A stretch of DNA of 64,000 nt from Verrucomicrobium sp. BvORR106 (lineage in GTDB: Bacteria > Verrucomicrobiota > Verrucomicrobiia > Verrucomicrobiales > Verrucomicrobiaceae): NCBI RefSeq assembly GCF_000739655.1, contig NZ_BATR01000066.1, positions 1 to 64,000 on the forward strand, read 5' to 3'. A program made the translations under genes and the position numbers. Under the pieces are notes generated by a model, which was not told the DNA's origin, made no database searches, and saw only the letters and a list, made by a program, of their open reading frames with translations. Below, piece after piece: positions 7,933-58,583 of the stretch; position 1 is the stretch's first letter, and the number at the start of each line of letters is the position of its first letter.

Positions 7933-9114
7933 TCAGACACTGGCCAGGGCTTCGGGTTCCTTGGTTTTCAACGCGCCCCAGAGTTGGTGGATGCGGGACT
8001 GGAGGAACTCCCGCTGATCAGTCCGTTGCACCCACTGGACGCTGCCTTCCAGAATGGCCAGGCGATCCCGCAGGTAGGCCTGGCTTGGCGCAGAGGCCCC
8101 TGGGTCCAGACGCCCTTCCAGCCACGCCAGACTGCGGGCCAGGGATTCTGCATCCGGCTGGCCGCTGGCGGAGGCGCGGGGGTGATCGGAGCCATCCGGG
8201 GCGGCGTCTCCCCGGCTGATGGATTCCTGGACGAGCGAGCGCAGCACCTCGATCTGCTCATCCCGATCCCATAGATAACGCAGGACCCAGAGGTCAGAAT
8301 GGCGGGCCTCCATGCGGCCACTGAGGAGGGCACTGGCGGCGACGAGGCGTTGCACCTTGACGGCGCGGCGATCTGAGAAGGCGATGCCTGCATGCCGGAT
8401 ACGGTGCACGAGGTCCACGTAGTCCTTCAGCACGGGCTGCAGGGAGACGCGGGAGGTGGCCTGCTGGATGAGGCGGATGTGCTCCGGGCCCAAGGAAGAC
8501 GTTTCCGGTGGGGTGGACTCCAGCCGCCAGCCGGCATCCAGCACCTCCATGAGGCGGTCTTCGGGCGCGGCATCACAGCGCACGCGTAGCAGGAATCGGT
8601 CAAACAGGGCGCGCAGGGCGTCTTCTTCCGGCAGGTGGTTGCTGGCACCCACGAACATGAGGGCCTGGACCTTGAGCCGCTCGCGCCCGCGATGCAGCAC
8701 GCGCTCATTCAGCACGGTAAGCAGGCTGTTGAGGATGGCGCTGTTGGCATTGAGGAGCTCATCCATGAAGACGAGGGAGGCCTCGCTGAGCATGCCCTCG
8801 GTATTGGTGACCAGATCGCCCTCCCGCAGACGGCGGATGTCAAAGGGGCCGAAGAGCTCGTTTGGCTCCGTGAACCGGGTGAGCAGGTAGGAGAAGGTGT
8901 CTCCCCGCAGCCGTTGGCCCAAGGCGTGTACGAGCGCGCTCTTGGCCGTGCCGGGAGGGCCCAGGATAAAGAGATTCTCCCCCGCGGCGAGGCAGACGCC
9001 CAGCAGGTCCACGACCTCATCTTTGGCGACAAATGACTGGCGGAGACCTTGCAAGACTTCCGTCTGGAGGCGGGCGGCGATGTGCGACGCGTCTGAAAAA
9101 TCAGGCGATGTCAT
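7933..9114 (-). CDS. MoxR-family AAA+ ATPase of ternary system (393 aa)
   Basis: AAA+ ATPase of the MoxR/RavA group, which forms hexamers and remodels or activates partner proteins bound through vWA domains. Residues 52-59 GPPGTAKS are Walker A. LVFMDE at 114-119 is Walker B, with the MoxR-typical LLNANSAILNSLLTVLNER helix after it. N159 in GASN is sensor 1 and FDRF at 171-174 carries the arginine finger. A C-terminal helical lid follows, with SDRR near 270 as a sensor-2-like segment. All ATPase residues are intact. It is second in the operon, 35 bases after the 218-aa gene and 47 before the 257-aa gene. Full length compared with RavA-type proteins minus their long C-terminal extension. Confidence 0.93.
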   Translation of the reverse strand: MTSPDFSDASHIAARLQTEVLQGLRQSFVAKDEVVDLLGVCLAAGENLFILGPPGTAKSALVHALGQRLRGDTFSYLLTRFTEPNELFGPFDIRRLREGDLVTNTEGMLSEASLVFMDELLNANSAILNSLLTVLNERVLHRGRERLKVQALMFVGASNHLPEEDALRALFDRFLLRVRCDAAPEDRLMEVLDAGWRLESTPPETSSLGPEHIRLIQQATSRVSLQPVLKDYVDLVHRIRHAGIAFSDRRAVKVQRLVAASALLSGRMEARHSDLWVLRYLWDRDEQIEVLRSLVQESISRGDAAPDGSDHPRASASGQPDAESLARSLAWLEGRLDPGASAPSQAYLRDRLAILEGSVQWVQRTDQREFLQSRIHQLWGALKTKEPEALASV

Positions 9115-9149
9115 GAAGTTAATGGCGGGTTTTCTACTTTCTTTTTAAT

Positions 9150-9806
9150 TCAAAGCGGAACATCCATCAGAGGCAAGTGCAGATGCTGGGCCACCTTGGG
9201 GCAGAGATCAGGATAGGCTCCCACGGTGTCCTCTGCCGCCTGCCGGACAGCTGGCTCTTCCAGGCGGGCCAGATCGGCGGTGCGGAGGATTCGGTCGGTG
9301 TAGAGGGCCAGCAAGCAGGGGTGGGTGACGATGGGTTTCACCCCGTTGCAAGACTCCAGCATCATGCCCACCGAGCTGAGCGGCCAAGCGGCCCCCAACG
9401 TCTTGATGCGGGACACGAGCGGGTCATCCGGGGCCATGCGGGCGGCGAAGCGGGCCACCTCTGGCAGATGCTGGAAGAGGAGGTCCACGGAGTAATCCAC
9501 CGAGGCGCTGCGGGGGGCTGGGCAGGGCTCTGCGAGAGAGGCCTCCATGCCTGCGACATCCACATCCCGCGCGGCCAGCAGATGGATGAGCTGGTAGAGG
9601 ATCCCCGCCGCCCAAGTGGCTGTCGGAAGGTCCAGCGCGGGAGCATCATAGGCCAGACTGGAACGCTGCCGCTGGTCAAACTCCTCCAGCACTTCCGCCA
9701 GCTCGTCGGGCGTGGCCGGGTCAGCCGGAGCGAGCTTCACCACAGCGAAGCCCTGATCGAGGAGGGATTGGAGAAATTCGATCACAGGAAAAGTATCCCG
9801 CCCCAC
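9150..9806 (-). CDS. First gene of ternary-system operon, helical accessory protein (218 aa)
   Basis: Unknown, mostly helical protein whose sequence resembles the small acidic partners (bpX4-like, tentative) seen beside MoxR in ternary systems. Features: FLQSLLDQGFAVVKLAP at the start, a conserved-looking segment TATWAAGILYQLIHLLAARD near residue 65, and a C-terminal HLPLMDVPL. It has no membrane segment or enzyme motif. The start is uncertain: the GTG at 9806 gives 218 residues, and a second in-frame GTG at 9785 would remove seven. Neither has a clear Shine-Dalgarno sequence. It is the promoter-proximal gene, and the sequence upstream runs straight into the RAYT repeat unit at 9851, so the operon promoter must lie in a very short space. 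Confidence 0.65.
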   Translation of the reverse strand: MGRDTFPVIEFLQSLLDQGFAVVKLAPADPATPDELAEVLEEFDQRQRSSLAYDAPALDLPTATWAAGILYQLIHLLAARDVDVAGMEASLAEPCPAPRSASVDYSVDLLFQHLPEVARFAARMAPDDPLVSRIKTLGAAWPLSSVGMMLESCNGVKPIVTHPCLLALYTDRILRTADLARLEEPAVRQAAEDTVGAYPDLCPKVAQHLHLPLMDVPL

Positions 9807-9850: not shown

Positions 9851-9895
9851 CAGTGCGTCGGTGCGTCGGTGCGTCAGTACGTCAAGGCGTTGGGG
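9851..9895 (+). repeat. Dispersed repeat family 1, outer left end of RAYT unit
   Basis: Starts CAGTGCGTCGGTGCGTCGGT and ends GTCAAGGCGTTGGGG. It has three 8-bp GGTGCGTC-type units in place of one. Its mirror image is at 11388-11428. Confidence 0.85.
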
Positions 9896-10102
9896 GCGCC
9901 GTGACGAAGAGAACGCATCATCGGCTTCAGCCGAATCTGGATGCCGGAGGCTATCGATGGAGTTTGGCCTTTGAGGAAAGGATGCCGGAGGCATCCCAGC
10001 CATTAGCCGGATGGTTGAAGGAGCGGAGCGACTGATACCTCCGGAAAGGGGTCGTAAAATGTATTCCACCCCGGCAGGGGTGGCAGCAAAGTCGCAGCTC
10101 CG
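9896..10102 (+). repeat. Left outer arm of ~205-bp imperfect inverted repeat
   Basis: Contains palindromes such as GGATGCCGGAGGCATCC and CCCCGGCAGGGGTGG. The whole segment (CATCGGCTTCAGCCG...ATACCTCCGGAAAGGG...GTATTCCACCCC) reappears reverse-complemented at 11181-11388 with few differences. Confidence 0.85.
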
Positions 10103-10324
10103 GTGCGTCGGTGCGTCGGTGCGTCGGTGCGTCGGTGCGTCGGTGCGTCGGTGCGTCGGTGCGTGGAGGCGTCGGTGCGTGGAGGCGTGGAGGCGTGGAG
10201 GCGTGGAGGCGTGGAGGCGTGGAGGCGTGGAGGCGTGGAGGCGTGGAGGCGTGGAGGCGTGGAGGCGTGGAGGCGTGGAGGCGTGGCAGTGCGTTAGTAG
10301 TGCGTTAGTAGTGCGTTAGTAGTG
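10102..10324. repeat. 8-bp tandem array followed by 11-bp tandem array
   Basis: Seven GGTGCGTC units (10102-10157) lead through mixed units (10158-10181) into thirteen GAGGCGTG units (10182-10285). Three perfect AGTGCGTTAGT units (10288-10320) follow. The units are near-identical, pointing to slippage expansion. The GGTGCGTC unit is also part of dispersed family 1. All frames stay open, giving spurious Arg/Gly/Val/Trp peptides. Confidence 0.95.
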
Positions 10325-10354
10325 AAGATGTTGGGGGTGGCGCGGTGGTGAGGA

Positions 10355-10490
10355 GCGCGCCCATCGGCTTCAGACGCCTTCGGATGCCGGAGGCATCGCA
10401 GCCATTAGCCGGACGGTTGAGGGAGCGGAGCGACCGATACCTCCGGTAAGCAGAAAGAAATTTGCATCCCGAAGGTGATGCCAGCAAGAT
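10355..10490 (+). repeat. Left inner REP-like arm upstream of RAYT gene
   Basis: GCCCATCGGCTTCAGACGCC... through CCGATACCTCCGG, a second same-strand copy of the element at 9896. Its mirror copy lies just after the transposase gene at 10985-11125. Confidence 0.75.
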
Positions 10491-10515
10491 CCTCTTTCTC
10501 CACGCATCATCAAAC

Positions 10516-10962
10516 ATGTCCGGCACCTATGTCTCGCTGCACTACCATGTTGTCTTCAGTACCAAGAACCGGGAGCCCCTGATCGGTGCCGAGTGGCTTC
10601 CCCGATTGCACGAGTATTTAGGCGGTACGGTGCACGGACTCGGAGGATTTTGCCAGGGGGTCGGAGGCATCAATGATCATGTGCATCTGTTGATCGGCCT
10701 GAAACCCACGCACTGTCTCTCCGACTTCATGCGGGAGTTGAAAAAGGCATCATCCATATGGGTGCACCAAGAGGTCGGGCTGAGCCATTTCGCCTGGCAG
10801 GAAGGGTATTCAGCATTCTCTGTCAGCGCCACTTCACGGGAAGCGGTCAAACAGTACATTGCACACCAGCAGGAGCATCATCGGGTGAAATCGTTCCGGG
10901 AAGAGCTCGTGCAAATGCTGGTCAAAGCGGGGGTTGCCTTCAAGCCGGAATACCTTGATTGA
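10516..10962 (+). CDS. REP-associated tyrosine transposase (RAYT, IS200-like Y1), 148 aa
   Basis: Single-strand DNA transposase of the HUH/Y1 family. RAYTs are domesticated relatives of IS200 transposases that cut and mobilise palindromic REP elements. The HUH pair is H55-V-H57 in INDHVHLLIG. The catalytic tyrosine is Y114 in VKQYIAHQQEHH. The family hallmark WQEGYSAFSVS is at 95-105, and the N-terminus has the usual YVSLHYHVVFSTKNR strand. Length is normal. I take the ATG at 10516 because the family begins about there; an earlier in-frame ATG adds 18 unrelated residues. Two pairs of nested inverted REP-like arms surround the gene, so the substrate is probably the flanking repeats. All catalytic residues are present and the gene appears intact. 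Confidence 0.93.
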   Translation: MSGTYVSLHYHVVFSTKNREPLIGAEWLPRLHEYLGGTVHGLGGFCQGVGGINDHVHLLIGLKPTHCLSDFMRELKKASSIWVHQEVGLSHFAWQEGYSAFSVSATSREAVKQYIAHQQEHHRVKSFREELVQMLVKAGVAFKPEYLD

Positions 10963-10984
10963 CAGGGCGGACGTTGCTGCGACC

Positions 10985-11125
10985 CGCTCCGGGGTCGGAA
11001 ATATCCCCTGATTACCGGAGGTATCAGTCGCTCCGCTCCTTCAACCATCCGGCTAATGGCTGGGATGCCTCCGGCATCCTTTCCTCTAAGGCCAAACTCC
11101 AGCGATAGCCTCCGGCATCCGATGC
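10985..11125 (-). repeat. Right inner REP-like arm downstream of RAYT gene
   Basis: ACCGGAGGTATCAGTCGCTC ... GATGCCTCCGGCATCC, the reverse complement of the elements at 9896 and 10355. A related element lies at 51905-52010. Confidence 0.8.
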
Positions 11126-11180
11126 GTCTGAAGCCGATGTATTCTCTTCGCCACGGTGGCCCCATCGCCTTGACGTCCTG

Positions 11181-11387
11181 GAACTGCGGCTCTGCTGCCA
11201 CCCCTGCCGGGGTGGAATACATTTTACGACCCTTTTCCGGAGGTATCAGTCGCTACGCTCCCTCAACCATCCGGCTAATGGCTGGGATGCCTCCGGCATC
11301 CTTCCCTAGAAGGCCAAACTCCATCGATGCCTCCGGCATCCAGATGCGGCTGAAGCCGATGATGCGTTCTCTTCGCCACGGTGCCCC
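11181..11387 (-). repeat. Right outer arm of ~205-bp imperfect inverted repeat
   Basis: Mirror of 9896-10102: CTGCCACCCCTGCCGGGGTG, then ACATTTTACGACCC, TCCGGAGGTATCAGTCGCT and GGATGCCTCCGGCATCC in the opposite order and strand. Confidence 0.85.
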
Positions 11388-11428
11388 CAACACCTTGACG
11401 TACTGACGCACCGCCCACTGACGCACCG
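11388..11428 (-). repeat. Dispersed repeat family 1, outer right end of RAYT unit
   Basis: CAACACCTTGACGTACTGAC...CTGACGCACCG; mirror of 9851-9895. It closes the ~1.58-kb nested inverted-repeat unit. Confidence 0.85.
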
Positions 11429-11441
11429 ACTCTCCGGCAAC

Positions 11442-12977
11442 TCAAGCCCGTCCGTATTTGACCGTGACCTCCCGCAGCCGCGTTTCCAATGCGGAAGTCA
11501 GTTGGAACCACGTGAAGCGCCAGTTCCAGAATTCGCCGCTTTTGCCGGGGATGTTCATGCGGGCCTCGCTACCCAGGCCGAGGACATCCTGAAGGGGGCA
11601 GATGGCCAGCTGGGACTGGCTTTTCCAGACGTGCTCGATGAAGTCCCAGTGGATCTCACTGCCATCGGTCTGGGTGTAGGTGAGAATGGTGCGGCGCTCG
11701 GCTTCGATCACCTCGGCGGTGCGGGTGCTGTCGTCGCCTGCCTCGCTGCGGAAGAGGCCGACCACGGTGTCGTTGTCGTGCGTGCCGGTGTAGCCCACGC
11801 TGTTTTCCGGATAGGTGGTGGGGTCGTAGAGCGGCGTTACGGTGTCTGGACCGAAGGCGAACTGCATGACGCGCATGCCGGGCAGGCTGTGCTTGTCCCG
11901 CAACTCCACCACGTCGGGCGTGATGAGCCCGAGGTCTTCTGCGATGATGGGGAGCTCGCCCATTTCTTCCTTGAGGGAGTTAAAGAGGGCGTCGCCTGGG
12001 GCTTCCACCCACTTGCCGTTGATGGCGGTGGCCTCGGTGGCAGGGATCTCCCAGTAGGCGGCAAAGCCCCGGAAGTGGTCGATGCGCACCACGTCCACGA
12101 GGGCGAGTGTCTTGCGCATGCGGCTCTTCCACCAGTTGAAGTTGGTCTTCAGGTGCTTGGGCCAGTCGTAGAGCGGGTTGCCCCAGCGCTGGCCGGTTTC
12201 GCTGAAATAGTCGGGCGGTACGCCGGCGATCACCGTGGGATTGCCGTTCTCATCCAGATAAAAGAGCTCGCGGTTCGCCCAGACGTCGGCGCTGTCATGC
12301 GCGGTGAAGATAGGGATGTCTCCCACAATGGCGATGCCCAGCTCCCGGGCGCGAATGCGGAGCTTGTTCCACTGGCGGTGGAAGAGAAATTGCAGGGCCT
12401 TGGCCTCCTCGATCTCGGCCTCCAGGGAGGACATGACCTGCGCCATGGCTACGTCTTCACGCAGGGCCACTTCGCGAGGCCACTCCGTCCAGGGCTTGCT
12501 GTCGTGCTCCTCCTTCAGGGCGATGAACATGGCCCAGTCGTCCAGCCAGTCGGACTCCCGCTGGCAGAAAACCTCAAAAGCACGGGCCAGCAGCGGGCTG
12601 GCATTGCATTGATCGATGAAGCGGCGGGCGGCCTTGCGCAGGAAGGCCATGCGCACCTCAATGACGGAGCCGAAGTCCACGTGATCATCCGGGAACTCTG
12701 GGAGCAAATGGAGGTCTGAAGGCGTGACCATGCCGTCCTTCACCAGGGCATCCAGACTGATGAGGAGGGGATTGCCCGCGAAGCTCGAGAGCGACTGGTA
12801 GGGGGAATTGCCGTAGCCTGTGGGGCCCAGTGGCAGGATCTGCCAGACTTTCTGCCCCATGCGGTGGAGTGACTCCAGCCAGAGCTCGGCCCCCGGCCCA
12901 ATCTCACCCACCCCAAACCGGCCAGGCAGCGATGTCGGATGCAACAGGATGCCGGCAGAGCGGGAGAGGGAAAGCAT
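11442..12977 (-). CDS. malQ: 4-alpha-glucanotransferase (amylomaltase, GH77)
   Basis: Transfers alpha-1,4-glucan segments between maltooligosaccharides or glycogen chains in the cytoplasm. GH77 hallmarks: N-terminal GILLHPTSLPG and GVGEIGPGA, QILPLGPTGYGNSPYQS, then VVRIDHFRGF with the catalytic nucleophile Asp, IAEDLG with the acid/base Glu, and GTHDNDT with the transition-state Asp. Length 511 aa is normal for the bacterial type. I choose the ATG at 12977 (MLSLSRSAGILL); the only upstream option is a TTG six codons earlier. No other glycogen genes are in the window. It is the last gene of a minus-strand run that starts at 15627, separated by 88 bases from the amidotransferase. Confidence 0.96.
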   Translation of the reverse strand: MLSLSRSAGILLHPTSLPGRFGVGEIGPGAELWLESLHRMGQKVWQILPLGPTGYGNSPYQSLSSFAGNPLLISLDALVKDGMVTPSDLHLLPEFPDDHVDFGSVIEVRMAFLRKAARRFIDQCNASPLLARAFEVFCQRESDWLDDWAMFIALKEEHDSKPWTEWPREVALREDVAMAQVMSSLEAEIEEAKALQFLFHRQWNKLRIRARELGIAIVGDIPIFTAHDSADVWANRELFYLDENGNPTVIAGVPPDYFSETGQRWGNPLYDWPKHLKTNFNWWKSRMRKTLALVDVVRIDHFRGFAAYWEIPATEATAINGKWVEAPGDALFNSLKEEMGELPIIAEDLGLITPDVVELRDKHSLPGMRVMQFAFGPDTVTPLYDPTTYPENSVGYTGTHDNDTVVGLFRSEAGDDSTRTAEVIEAERRTILTYTQTDGSEIHWDFIEHVWKSQSQLAICPLQDVLGLGSEARMNIPGKSGEFWNWRFTWFQLTSALETRLREVTVKYGRA

Positions 12978-13065
12978 AAAGTCACAAGAGCGCAACAGCC
13001 GTGCCGTGCAAGCTGCTAAAAGGGGCAGCGACGTTGCTTTTTTTAACTCATTCGGGAGGATTCGC

Positions 13066-14305: not shown

Positions 14306-14323
14306 CAAGGCCCGCTGCGCGGG

Positions 14324-14360
14324 AGACAGAAGACTTAAAGACCCAAGACGCAAGACTTGA
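14324..14360 (+). repeat. Dispersed 'CAAGAC' repeat family 2
   Basis: GAGACAGAAGACTTAAAGAC followed by CCAAGACGCAAGACTTGAA. The same motif, either strand, occurs at 15814-15850, 26441-26520, 33301-33334 and 51711-51752. Always intergenic. Confidence 0.7.
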
Positions 14361-14388
14361 AACGGAGCTGACACCACCCATTTACCTC

Positions 14389-15627
14389 TTACCGAACTCC
14401 CCGACTCGCTTTCACCACGAGCAACCATCCCAGAGCGGCGATCACAAACAGGCCCAAGATGGCCACGAGTACAGCTTCGGGCATTCCGGTGCGGCTCCAC
14501 ATGCTGGCCAGCACGAGAGGGGAGGCTGCTTTGCCGAGAATCAAGGGGCCGGAAAGCAGTCCATTCAACTCCGCATAGCGCTCGGTGCCGAAGAGTTCCG
14601 CCACGGAGGTTCCTTTGAGGATGGTGGTGATGCCATTGGCGGCGCCATACAGGACGGCAAAGCCGAGCATGCTGATCATGTGGGCGGGCCAGATCAAAAG
14701 GAGCACCATGGAGAGGATGAGGGCTCCCAGGGCCCAGCCACCGACGCTGACTGCACGGAAGTCTCGACCCCAAAAGGCCAGAGCCAGTCTGCCCAGGACC
14801 TGCATGGGCCCGAAGGTCGCCATCGCCCAGAGGACGTGTTCCGTGTCCGCGCCCAGACGCTGATGAATGGGGGCAAAAAGGAAGGTCAGAGCGGAGAATG
14901 CTGCCGTGTGGGCGGTGAACCACAGTGAGAGGCCAATAAAGCGGCGGTCAGTGGCGTAGTGACGCAGTTCCCCCGCCCAGTGGATGAACCGACGATACCA
15001 AGGAGGAAGTGCTTCAAGGCTTGATGGATTACTGATGCTGCCCGGAAGACCCAGATGCAAAGGCACTGCCACCAATACCTGCAGGAGACCGAGGGAGATC
15101 AGGGCGCGTCTCCAGCCATAGGTGTCCACCAAGGCGTGAGTAAGGGGCAGGAAGGCGGTGCTGGCCAGTCCTCCCAAGAGGGTGATCAGGATGATGCCAC
15201 GTCGATACTCCTGACCGAAGGCCGTGGTCACCACGGCAAAGGCAGGCTCGTAAAGCATCCCCGCCATGGCGCAGCCTAGCAAAATCCAGGAAAGCAAGTA
15301 TCCCCATGAAGCGGTGCAGGTGGCCATGAGGATCAAGGAAACACCCCCCAGAAACGCCCCCGCTGGCATGAGCAGCCTGGCCCCTCGTCGCTGGATCCAG
15401 GCCCCCGCAGGCAGGGCGCAGATGCCCCACACCAGCAGCCCCAGGGAGAGCCCCCCATTCACAAACTCCTGGCTCCACCCAGTGTCATCGTGCAGCGGGC
15501 CTGCCACCATGGCGAAGGCGTAGTACAAGATGCCCCAGGCAAAGAACTGGCCCACTGCCAGCCTCCAGGCCAGGGACCATGGGAGAGGAAGTTTTCGTGG
15601 AGGGGAGATGGAGGAGGAAGGTGGCAT
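14389..15627 (-). CDS. Major facilitator superfamily transporter (412 aa)
   Basis: Inner-membrane secondary transporter with about 12 hydrophobic segments. Visible ones include the N-terminal VGQFFAWGILYYAFAMVAGP, the block GLSLGLLVWGICALPAGAW, and the C-terminal VLVAILGLFVIAALGWLLVV. The loop 2-3 signature is present as GAWIQRRGARLLMPAGA (the family G-x3-D-R-x-G-R motif is only approximate). Substrate cannot be told. Start chosen at the ATG 15627 (MPPSSSISPPRKLPLPW). A longer frame back to 15783 overlaps low-complexity intergenic DNA and lacks family resemblance. First gene of the minus-strand run to malQ; divergent from the G3E GTPase at 15877. Confidence 0.88.
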   Translation of the reverse strand: MPPSSSISPPRKLPLPWSLAWRLAVGQFFAWGILYYAFAMVAGPLHDDTGWSQEFVNGGLSLGLLVWGICALPAGAWIQRRGARLLMPAGAFLGGVSLILMATCTASWGYLLSWILLGCAMAGMLYEPAFAVVTTAFGQEYRRGIILITLLGGLASTAFLPLTHALVDTYGWRRALISLGLLQVLVAVPLHLGLPGSISNPSSLEALPPWYRRFIHWAGELRHYATDRRFIGLSLWFTAHTAAFSALTFLFAPIHQRLGADTEHVLWAMATFGPMQVLGRLALAFWGRDFRAVSVGGWALGALILSMVLLLIWPAHMISMLGFAVLYGAANGITTILKGTSVAELFGTERYAELNGLLSGPLILGKAASPLVLASMWSRTGMPEAVLVAILGLFVIAALGWLLVVKASRGVR

Positions 15628-15813
15628 GTGCACTGGGGGCCCTAGGCGGTATGAACAGGGAAAGGGAAGAGGGGGAAGGGATAAGGGAAAAGGGGAGAGT
15701 TCGGTGGCGGGGTGCCAGCGTGACGCTAGACGTGAATCGAGGCAAGAATGAGGCTCCTCTTCCCTTACTGGTGTTCCCGTCAAGGCCGTTCTTCCCAGGT
15801 GTCAGCTCAGTTT

Positions 15814-15850
15814 CAGGTCTTGCGTCTTGTGCCTTCTCGTCTTGTGTCTC
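15814..15850 (-). repeat. Dispersed 'CAAGAC' repeat family 2
   Basis: CAGGTCTTGCGTCTTGTGCC then TTCTCGTCTTGTGTCTC; lies between the divergent MFS and G3E genes. Confidence 0.65.
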
Positions 15851-15876
15851 CGCACTTCCTACTTTCCCCGACATCC

Positions 15877-17034
15877 ATGAGCGTTTCTTCCTCCATCTCC
15901 TCCCCGACCAAGGCCCGCTACATCATGATCGGGGGCTTCCTCGGCGCGGGGAAGACCACGGCGATCGGCAAGCTGGCGCGGACGCTGACGGACCAGGGGC
16001 TGAAGGTGGGGCTGATCACCAATGACCAGGCGGGCGGACTGGTGGATACCAAGCTGCTGCGCACCCAGGGCTTCGCCACGGAGGAGATCGCGGGCGGGTG
16101 CTTCTGCTGCCGGTTCAACACGCTGGTGGATGCCGCGGCAAAGCTGAATGATGCGACCAAGCCGGACGTCTTCATTGCGGAGCCGGTGGGGAGCTGCACG
16201 GATCTGGTGGCGACCGTGACCTATCCCCTGCGCCGCATGTACGGCGATTCGTATTCCATCGCTCCTTTGAGCGTGCTGGTGGACCCGGTGCGGGCCCGTC
16301 GTGTGCTGGGGCTGGATGCGGGGGGCAATTTCTCCTCCAAGGTGACCTACATCTACAAGAAGCAGCTCGAGGAGGCGGACATCATCGTGGTGAACAAGCG
16401 GGATCTCCTGACCCCGGAGCAGCTCGCGGAGCTCACCGAGGCTCTGCAGAAGGCATTCCCCCAGGCAAAGATTGTGGACGCCTCGGCGCGTGAGGAAGAC
16501 GGCCTCACGGGCTGGTTCAGCTCGCTCTCCAGCGAGGCCCAGCCGGGCAACCGCGCTGCCATGGAGCTGGACTACGAGGTGTATGCCGATGGCGAGGCGC
16601 TGCTGGGCTGGCTGAACGCCACCGTCACCCTGGTGGCGGAAGACGAGTTCGATGCCAACGGGTACCTCCGCTGCTTGGCCGGGAGCATCCAGGAAAAACT
16701 GGCGGCCCAGCAGGCCGAGGTGGCTCATCTCAAGATGACCTACAGCCCCGACGACGGCATCGGCGGCGAGATCGCCTCCGTGAACCTGGTGCGCAATGAC
16801 AACGTGGCCGAGACGGGTATGACGCTGGATGAGCCCAGCACCGGCGGTCAGTTGATCCTGAACCTGCGGGCCGAGACCGACCCCGAGGCCTTGCTCACTG
16901 CCGTGAAGGAAAGCCTGGTGATCGCAGGCGAGGTGTACCCCGGCGTGAAGAGCACGCTGGACCACGAAGAGCACTTCCGCCCCGGCAAACCCGAGCCCAC
17001 CTATCGTGATGGCGAGGCCCCAAATGCAAAATGA
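15877..17034 (+). CDS. G3E-family GTPase (CobW/HypB/UreG-type metallochaperone), 385 aa
   Basis: SIMIBI-class GTPase that delivers or inserts a metal into a client enzyme. Walker A is GGFLGAGKTT (19-28). The metal-binding CxCC motif is GGCFCC (73-78). A base-specificity NKRD is at 173-176. The C-terminal half carries the CobW_C-like domain and ends with a His/Glu stretch (DHEEHFRPGKPE). Start at ATG 15877, just before the P-loop strand; a longer frame upstream has no family resemblance and covers the repeat at 15814. No urease, hydrogenase or cobalamin gene is adjacent, so the metal and client are unknown. Confidence 0.9.
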   Translation: MSVSSSISSPTKARYIMIGGFLGAGKTTAIGKLARTLTDQGLKVGLITNDQAGGLVDTKLLRTQGFATEEIAGGCFCCRFNTLVDAAAKLNDATKPDVFIAEPVGSCTDLVATVTYPLRRMYGDSYSIAPLSVLVDPVRARRVLGLDAGGNFSSKVTYIYKKQLEEADIIVVNKRDLLTPEQLAELTEALQKAFPQAKIVDASAREEDGLTGWFSSLSSEAQPGNRAAMELDYEVYADGEALLGWLNATVTLVAEDEFDANGYLRCLAGSIQEKLAAQQAEVAHLKMTYSPDDGIGGEIASVNLVRNDNVAETGMTLDEPSTGGQLILNLRAETDPEALLTAVKESLVIAGEVYPGVKSTLDHEEHFRPGKPEPTYRDGEAPNAK

Positions 17035-27208: not shown

Positions 27209-27372
27209 GGTGGCCGCAAGCGGCCTGTTGAGACGCTGCGCTGGTTGAGGCGGCTTCGCCTGATCCAAAGGAGTGAGGGTTCGGATTCGACATATCGAGA
27301 GGATCACCCTCAACACCTTGACGCACAGGGTCAGGCAACGACGTCCGATGACGTCTTGCCTGATACAGTTCC

Positions 27373-38374: not shown

Positions 38375-38784
38375 GCGACGAAGAGCCGGATGATAGAGCA
38401 GAATCGGTTGTGAGTTGATTCATAGAGCCAACGTCCAGTGGTGATGGCGGGCATTTTGCAGTCTTTTGCGCGAGCCCTTGCATCCCCCCAAGGAGCGGCG
38501 GTTTGTGCTTGCACAACCGCCGAGGGTTGCCAGAGGAGGAGCTCTTCCAGGCAAGAATGCAGCGACAAGACCGCATTGAGCGATGGGTGTTTGGCAATAG
38601 ATCACTCCGCTTTCCCTCGGCGGTTGTGCAAGCACAAACCGCCGCTCCTTGGCTCCTTTGGTACCTGGACTTTGAATCGGTGCCAACACTTCAGCCTCTT
38701 GCCTCAGAAGCGGAAGCAAGCCGCCAGGCTGGATTTTCTCTGTACTTTTGCGGATGGCCAGTATGTTCTATAAAAACTACCGCC
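38375..38784. other. Intergenic space with a doublet of palindromic repeats
   Basis: Holds the inverted pair listed at 38488-38652 and nothing else recognisable. The following gene's frame is open through it without family resemblance. Confidence 0.65.
38488..38652. repeat. Two facing copies of a 39-bp palindromic element
   Basis: Left copy 38488-38526, right copy 38614-38652 reverse-complemented and near identical (AAGGAGCGGCGGTTTGTGCT... and ...GCACAAACCGCCGCTCCTT). Each copy is itself a hairpin (CGGCGGTTTGTGC/GCACAACCGCCG). BIME-like doublet with an 87-base spacer. Confidence 0.85.
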
Positions 38785-51752: not shown

Positions 51753-52065
51753 GGGTGGGGGAATTTTTCTCACACGAAGGCACAAAGGCACGAAGGTTTG
51801 GTGGGGAAGAGTCTGAGCCGGTAAAGGAGGCGGGGTTCCTAGCCCCGCTCAGTCGAGCGTCTGATGAGGTGGCGTGGGAGTGTGAGGTGGAGCGGACGAT
51901 TCTGCGACCCCTTCAGGGTCGGGGGGATTTTTTGAGGTAACCGGGGGTGTCAGTCGCTACGCTCCTTCGACCCCCGGCTACCTTCTGTGATGCCTTCGGC
52001 ATCGGGGGTACGCTGGAAGCGTGCGGTTCTCAATGACTGTGAAGCGTTGTGGCTTGGATGCTTGG

Positions 52066-57926: not shown

Positions 57927-58583
57927 GTTGGTTGTGGATGAGTTGGCCCTGCTCACGATGCAAAGTGAGCGGATGTCATTGGGGGCGCGAAAGCGGTGCT
58001 TCACGCACGCACTCCATCCCGACTCGTCGGGACAAGCGAGGCCAGGTGTTGGGGGGCTTTGGCTGGAGGCCCTTCACAGACTTTGCAAAATCGTCGTCCT
58101 CGGCAAGATGCCGAGAACAGCACGCAGGATGCGTGCGCTCCCCGACATCCGTGTTGCGCGGGAGGCGTTGCTAGGCATCCGTCTCGCTCCACGCGAGGGT
58201 ATTTTGACGCCAAGGGCGTCAGACAAAATAGCCCGGGGTCAGGCGAGGGACGAGCCGCCACCCCGGGTGTACGGTTTGATGGGTAGGAACTCCGAAGTGA
58301 GTTCTACAGACCGTGCAAACAGACCTGATGCGGCTGCCGAAAATGGGGGGTGTGACTTCCGGTAGCCTGAGCGGTTTGTAGAACTCCGTTGGAGTTCCAT
58401 CGTGTTCACCCCAAACCCGGGGTGGCGACCGCTTCGCGGTCTGACCCCGGGCTTTTATGTATCACGCCGTTGGCGTGGGGGTGCCTTTTGGCCCGGCGCT
58501 GGGAAGCCAGGCCAAAGCCCAGCACTACTTTTGTCCCTCCGGCCTTTGCATCCCCCTCCACCTCATGGCATGGGTGCTCTCCC
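57927..58583. repeat. Repeat-packed intergenic space (family 4 and others)
   Basis: GCTTCACGCACGCACTCCAT (57997-58016) and AACAGCACGCAGGATGCGTGC (58117-58137, split as AACAGCACGCAGGATGCGTG) match 52330 and 52067. Downstream are several mirror palindromes: GACGCCAAGGGCGTC (58206-58220), CCCGGGGTCAGGCGAGGGAC against GACCGCTTCGCGGTCTGACC and CCCCGGGC, and AACTCCGAAGTGAGTT facing AACTCCGTTGGAGTT. No gene seen. Confidence 0.75.

Follow-up and report, generated by a model that had tools for sequence, protein, structure and literature searches.

The window analysed here, a stretch of 64,000 nucleotides from Verrucomicrobium sp. BvORR106, harbours a cassette in which the gene of an IS200-type Y1 enzyme is enclosed by inverted copies of a three-hairpin DNA unit. 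As a structure, this cassette is well supported, and the proposal of an earlier note on this DNA, that a dispersed hairpin element stands in inverted copies on both sides of a Y1/HUH enzyme gene, was borne out. The analysis separates the cassette proper (unit plus gene) from the local clutter around it (the dispersed repeat called family 1 and short tandem arrays), and its results suggest that genes are exchanged at fixed sites of the chromosome.

Layout of the cassette and class of its enzyme

The features of the locus were, in window coordinates:

9853 to 9901, minus strand: family 1 copy inside the inverted outer arm, left
9981 to 10091, plus strand: outer three-hairpin unit, left
10101 to 10324, no strand: tandem arrays, with 8-bp periods at 10101-10180 and 10161-10286 and an 11-bp period at 10288-10324
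10311 to 10373, minus strand: degenerate family 1, preceding the left inner unit
10383 to 10489, plus strand: inner three-hairpin unit, left, which opens a 612-bp core common to two other species at 96-97% identity
10516 to 10962, plus strand: tnpA-like gene, 148 aa, with HUH and Y---Q--HH motifs, IS200-type, subclass 1.2 signature
10972 to 11078, minus strand: inner three-hairpin unit, right, inverted
11136 to 11180, plus strand: remnant of family 1, following the right inner unit
about 11190 to 11300, minus strand: outer three-hairpin unit, right, inverted, ends approximate
11385 to 11438, plus strand: family 1 copy at the right edge, some 3 nt away from the stop codon of malQ (11442)

The outer arms (9853-10109 and 11172-11426) were inverted repeats with 92% identity over 257 bp, for which we judge a chance origin to be no serious alternative, and the order and coordinates of the near-mirror structure given in the earlier note were confirmed. 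Each outer arm was not one repeat but combined three parts, namely a family 1 copy, a spacer and a unit of approximately 107 nt. On the right side, the segment of unit, spacer and family 1 was present in tandem with a spacing of 222-225 bp. The family 1 copy at 11385-11438 is probably the original one, and the 8- and 11-bp arrays resembled expansions of the family 1 end. The cassette is located between bpX4 (9150-9806, minus strand) and malQ (11442-12995, minus strand); the adjoining genes at window 7933-9806 are MoxR and bpX4, which belong to a MoxR-vWA-beta-propeller ternary system. No Rfam family was found in the window at gathering scores. Long self-complementary stretches were observed at 38488-38652 and 58207-58476 when the window was compared with itself.

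The product of the window gene matched PF01797 (E 2.3e-24), and its best PDB sequence matches were 2fyx, 2xm3 (presumably ISDra2) and ISHp608 transposases. The earlier designation of this enzyme as a RAYT assigned it to the wrong class, as it failed the NCBIfam REP_Tyr_transpos model (19.3 bits against a cut-off of 80), passed the NCBIfam IS200 model NF033573 (74.6 bits against a cut-off of 55) and has the Y motif YIAHQQEHH, i.e. Y---Q--HH. In the sections of Quentin 2018 (PMC6006769) drawn on here, this signature denotes TnpA_Y1 subclass 1.2, whose members are close to IS200 enzymes, are present in few copies and in general do not have the typical structures at their ends.

A scan that took a single genome from each of 84,980 species confirmed at least 566 relatives, of which the best 80 were used. 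The Y---Q--HH motif was present in all 80, which indicates the coherence of the group and not a rate because these named records were picked by similarity. None of the 80 had the Y...NP motif and none had a stop inside the matched stretch. Conserved residues were observed at the C-terminus, where a domain specific to subclass 1.2 would be expected. Nine match rows for the enzyme were obtained in its own genome, two of which represent one decayed close copy of the window gene on contig C147, and some enzyme copies were truncated or frameshifted. The closest intact paralogue was 72% identical, and no second intact copy of the window gene above this value was found in this genome. The enzyme is therefore single-copy, as had been claimed, as a sequence type but not as a member of its family in the genome.

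The three-hairpin unit and its occurrence

In the window family, the unit spans approximately 107 nt and follows the plan HP1, spacer, AG, HP2, about 22 nt, HP3; the foot of HP2 is TTAG, and GTAG precedes HP2 in a few paralogues. At least 79 copies were listed from three genomes, including a few rows from related subfamilies. At 19 of 27 dispersed loci (L012-L038, examined with 1.5-kb flanks) the unit was single and not part of an inverted pair. A related three-hairpin unit, similar to that around the paralogue on C27, was observed at window 51892-52003 (GATGCCGAAGGCATC ... CGACCCTGAAGGGGTCG).

Covariation was assessed on 40 copies, chosen by eye for diversity from the 69 with clean ends. The three-hairpin structure was 97.8% paired in this alignment versus 92.0% in shuffles, and cells changed on both sides numbered 46 versus 15.4, a value reached by none of 500 shuffles. 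Structures slid along the same alignment scored far below it. Two of the five measures were not above the shuffles, namely the number of pairs with a two-sided change (4 versus 3.2; reached by 135 of 500) and the number of further pair types (10 versus 9.9; reached by 353 of 500). The two-sided changes were mostly in helix 3, with one covarying pair in helix 2 and a nearly invariant helix 1; because helix 1 hardly varies, the covariation support is derived mainly from helix 3.

Inverted arms directly bracketed the gene in all 18 Y1 loci examined in four congeneric genomes. These 18 were taken from 26 match rows, leaving out two orthologues of the window gene (L069 and L070) and six fragments (L008, L077 and L083-L086). 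The sequences of the arms differed and the plan was commonly a long hairpin between two short ones, with two hairpins in L074. Among the 80 relatives elsewhere, 76 loci were usable, the others having a flank of less than 200 nt. Inverted flanking arms scoring at least 45 bits within 300 nt were present in 56 of these 76 and absent from 20, versus 3 of 76 mismatched pairs and 0 of 63 pairs of distal flanks used as controls.

For the counting of hairpins, 72 of 95 loci were kept (all 15 congeneric loci and 57 of the 80 others). At least three perfect hairpins of 5 bp or more were present in 72 of the 144 arms, compared with 1.1% of mononucleotide shuffles; in the other half, fewer than three clean hairpins were called by the strict caller. 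When a second hairpin began 5-14 nt after the first, its two-base foot was AG in 47 of 62 cases, and the triloops GAA and AAC predominated. The 3' tails of HP1 and HP3 could be compared in 81 of the 144 arms, with some wrong hairpins kept (e.g. L002 and L176), and had 4.35 matches within an arm versus 3.49 across loci (0 of 2000 permutations, which ignore base composition and the relatedness of loci). With one arm per locus (n=46), the values were 4.43 and 3.45 (again 0 of 2000). By analogy, this matching may recall the pairing of left with right ends in IS200-type elements.

According to their record titles, the loci with arms included Verrucomicrobia, Planctomycetes, Bacteroidetes, Armatimonadetes and Proteobacteria, many of them being from metagenome bins. 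At the family level, the enzyme was matched in 59 of 68 genomes, the unit in 21 and family 1, sought with an 86-bp query, in only three. Enzyme homologues with 65-71% identity were present together with the window-family unit, and without family 1, in other genera. Outside the genus, a unit match was obtained in 17 genomes. In seven of them (G009, G013, G014, G020, G026, G049 and G055) the unit was directly beside an enzyme homologue, some of these unit matches being short and partial; in the remaining ten, no unit was beside an enzyme gene among the matches listed. The arm of the Bacteroides xylanisolvens XB1A cassette had one near-full solo copy and two partial matches of 41 nt elsewhere in the genome, and when sought in four genomes it was matched in its own only. 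A 64-nt array of a partial unit was present upstream of this cassette (L186 1523-1997). A CRISPR-like reading of this array was considered and rejected, as the array is tandem and its spacers are largely alike.

Sixteen anchors were sought in two other species (G003 and G001) in order to follow the unit between matching places, and 24 of the 25 places were compared, a second and weaker G001 place being omitted. The unit was present in 2 of 11 stretches in G003 and in 4 of 13 in G001 (one of them weak), absence being defined within the compared stretch. At locus L023, a 227-bp stretch that contains the unit (TCATCGGG...TTGACGC) split the hairpin ATCCC^TGAAAGGGAT of another three-hairpin family. 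The same hairpin was uninterrupted in G001 (L240), which provides a clean empty site for L023, and no target duplication was observed. The arrangement recurred at L035, where the G001 counterpart (L249) was a diverged host hairpin without interruption and the alignment was less clean, and the target was of the same kind at L026/L236 and at L027. Among 12 rows of this long form, CCC was on the left in six and not in the other six, and the usual right end was absent in three. The exactly bounded insertion is that of the 227-bp long form, not of the bare unit, whose boundaries were mostly unreadable from matching loci because the flanks were rearranged. At another locus (L018 960-1760), the 3' end of a gene was partly duplicated on both sides of the unit in the genome of the window (G000), and not in G003 or G001.

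Relation to known systems

Insertion without target duplication is a property of IS200/IS605 elements (such as IS608 and ISDra2), and it is shared by the 227-bp insertion resolved here; the enzymes are also related by sequence. IS200/IS605 elements differ from the cassette in being near-identical mobile copies, whereas the window gene is not multi-copy as a type, with its closest intact paralogue at 72%, the arms are inverted and the sites are common to species.

A GGGGWSAS motif is present in the majority of TIRtron/TIRYT repeats. Like the cassette, these systems have long inverted repeats around a Y1 gene that are unrelated to GTAG REPs and are sometimes dispersed, as described in the portion of Di Nocera 2013 (PMC3733652) used here, which does not describe a conserved three-hairpin plan. 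Their enzymes are assigned to subclasses 2.1, 2.2 and 2.5 in the relevant sections of PMC6006769, whereas the window enzyme has the 1.2 signature.

The REPtron/RAYT systems, as far as they are covered by the passages used of Nunvar 2010 (PMC2817692) and Quentin 2018 (PMC6006769), also comprise a Y1 gene flanked on each side by a copy of a dispersed hairpin element, the two copies being inverted, and paralogues paired with different element families. The RAYT repeat is a palindrome of 20-40 bp headed by GT[AG]G, whereas the window unit is approximately 107 nt in length, has three hairpins and is without such a head. REPIN/BIME copies are mostly inverted pairs, in contrast to the predominance of single units described above, and the Y---Q--HH enzyme fails the REP-transposase model. 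In its working, the cassette resembles a REPtron, but it does not pass two of the tests that define a RAYT.

With subclass 1.2, the window enzyme shares the Y---Q--HH motif and the proximity to IS200 enzymes. In the same sections of PMC6006769, this subclass is described mostly from Cyanobacteria and Bacteroidetes and as generally without the terminal secondary structures of IS200, whereas here genes were found in many Verrucomicrobia and Planctomycetes and inverted multi-hairpin arms were common. The three-hairpin element is not described in the parts used of PMC2817692, PMC6006769, PMC3733652 and PMC8266576 (NAR 2021), and a search of the open-access literature, with subscription papers and preprints outside its scope, found no paper on such elements at subclass 1.2 genes. 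PMC6006769 presents subclass 1.2 as relatives of IS200 without the properties of insertion sequences and leaves their substrate open. Many of these enzymes, from several phyla, now have a candidate cognate DNA element of recurring plan, and therefore cleavage and the choice of strand and target become directly testable.

History of the cassette site, proposed mechanism and alternatives

In G003, which is probably V. spinosum, the gene is located between the same neighbours, bpX4 and malQ; in G001 it is beside bpX4 and the contig ends before malQ. The 612-bp core (10383-10994) was 96-97% identical between G000 and these two genomes, versus 83-86% in the adjoining stretches. The dS of tnpA from G000 was 0.09-0.10, a value resting on only about 102 synonymous sites, versus 0.50-0.60 for bpX4, MoxR and malQ (malQ in G003 only). 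Fifteen other window frames judged to be real had dS values of 0.19-0.75; open frames antisense to others, which gave spuriously low values, were left out. The comparison of G001 with G003 was less discordant (tnpA 0.19, bpX4 0.33). The arms in G003 included a row of unit-family 1 segments with a spacing of 320-352 bp, and the arm next to tnpA in both G003 and G001 was an unrelated inverted dispersed repeat (CCCGCTGCGCGGGAGACACAAGACT...; window 14311-14375, L107 12236-12281). As the arms differ among the three species, the outer mirror appears to have arisen locally, in a different way in each. No species was found in which the bpX4 site is without the cassette, bpX4 homologues of at least 85% identity being present in just three of the 68 family genomes, and the arrival of the cassette is thus not polarised.

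At five other shared sites (b to f), the dS of tnpA also disagreed with that of the flanks. The tnpA value was 0.79 against 0.12 for the flank at site b (0.42 for a second, poorer frame), and 1.23 against 0.50-0.68 for G003/G001 at site c, where one flanking frame was itself saturated in the G000/G001 pair. Discordance was modest at site d (0.11 against 0.22-0.36, with 0.74 for a third, poorly matched frame). The tnpA comparison was saturated at site e (flanks 0.50-0.64) and in two of three pairs at site f (flanks 0.52-0.97), with the third pair in agreement (0.61 against 0.52-0.54). At sites b, c and e, one of the species had the gene turned round with respect to the flanks (only one flank being seen at b). 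The possibility that cassette genes evolve like their own flanks was rejected on the basis of this discordance. The low dS of the core, together with same-site cassettes that are over-diverged or inverted, suggests exchange at fixed sites. Both the discordance and the flips would be accounted for if the genes were exchanged and inverted through the inverted units; it is also possible that the flips are mis-joins of draft assemblies at inverted repeats.

The explanation that we favour, with some reserve, is that of a nuclease which processes cognate units from a cassette exchanged at fixed sites, with outer arms of local origin. The predicted nuclease would recognise the unit as single-stranded DNA, on the lagging-strand template or in extruded hairpins, and would nick beside the short hairpins, so that units might be moved or copied without target duplication and the dispersed units would be its products. 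The class of the enzyme, the conservation of the arms, the matching of the tails and the insertion without duplication are all consistent with such single-strand processing. The cassette itself would stay at a fixed intergenic site, where the gene may be exchanged or inverted between species, with recombination through the inverted units as the probable route. Local duplication of a segment of unit plus family 1 beside malQ would have added the outer arms, family 1 and the 8/11-bp arrays, which would be rebuilt in each species. Cleavage, strand preference, the pairing of enzyme and unit in movement and this origin of the outer arms are what we infer from the sequence patterns. A broader proposal, which we put forward tentatively and regard as possible at best, is that subclass 1.2 TnpA forms a phylum-spanning single-stranded DNA system of its own, with pairs of gene and unit family, units entering the hairpin loops of other families without duplication, and cassettes homing to fixed sites with exchange of allele and orientation.

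It is unlikely, in our assessment, that the enzyme is instead domesticated and vertically inherited in an immobile cassette, with a low dS that reflects strong constraint, and that the units are RNA or DNA structural elements (mRNA 3' ends or gyrase-type sites) spread by ordinary recombination. Sites common to several species would be expected under such a scheme, and the compensatory changes suit RNA as well as single-stranded DNA. Constraint does not, however, explain why same-site genes are also over-diverged (dS 0.79, 1.23 or saturated, with flanks mostly at 0.12-0.97), and both the variable presence of the unit between matching places and the bounded insertion without duplication argue against it. 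Less probable still are old IS200-like insertion sequences in decay, with arms made of leftover ends and unrelated repeats. The IS200 model was indeed passed and some copies were truncated or frameshifted; against this, all 80 relatives were without a stop in the matched stretch, the arms are inverted with matched hairpins kept across phyla, and known IS200/IS605 elements are described as being without terminal inverted repeats in the part of PMC2817692 relied on here.

Family 1 had been proposed to form the ends of the mobile element and to be tied, as a dispersed repeat, to its enzyme; neither proposal held. A unit was within 300 nt of family 1 in 2 of 26 family 1 loci, of 24 unit loci only the C147 cassette had family 1 nearby, and none of the 106 cassette loci from genomes other than the three with family 1 contained it. 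The CACTGG end of solo family 1 copies was located at most 35 nt from the stop codon of a gene transcribed in its direction in 17 of 25 cases, versus 1 of 25 for the other side and 181 of 1250 random positions under the same rule. The simplest guess is that family 1 is a 3'-end element. All three family 1 genomes also carry the window-type enzyme, and the decayed C147 cassette has both family 1 and the unit, which counts against separating family 1 from the enzyme. Family 1 as an element end or as a marker of the enzyme was nevertheless rejected, given its presence in only three of 68 genomes, its rarity near the unit and its absence from the cassette loci; it is a bystander and not the end of an element.

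The view in the earlier note that the whole composite (9851-11428) is a mobile RAYT-REP unit, with family 1 as its ends and an enzyme that spreads family 1, is highly improbable, as its real mirror order, the C147 cassette and the joint presence of family 1 and enzyme type in three of three genomes are outweighed by an enzyme that is not a RAYT, a cassette that has the same place next to bpX4 in three species, with arms rebuilt differently in each, close homologues with the unit in other genera where family 1 was not found, the infrequent adjacency of family 1 and units, the orientation of family 1 to stop codons, and the persistence of solo family 1 copies at the same places in G003. Four of the five solo copies in the window (1538, 23785, 26309 and 35165) were recognisable at matching places in that genome, the 23785 copy with an expanded array; for the window copy at 27371, the array alone was left. 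A further stretch of G003 (approximately 1378000-1384500; L107/L223) matched window 14350-15890 and extended over 6.5 kb, versus 1.5 kb in the window, and contained spaced copies of the unit and of family 1.
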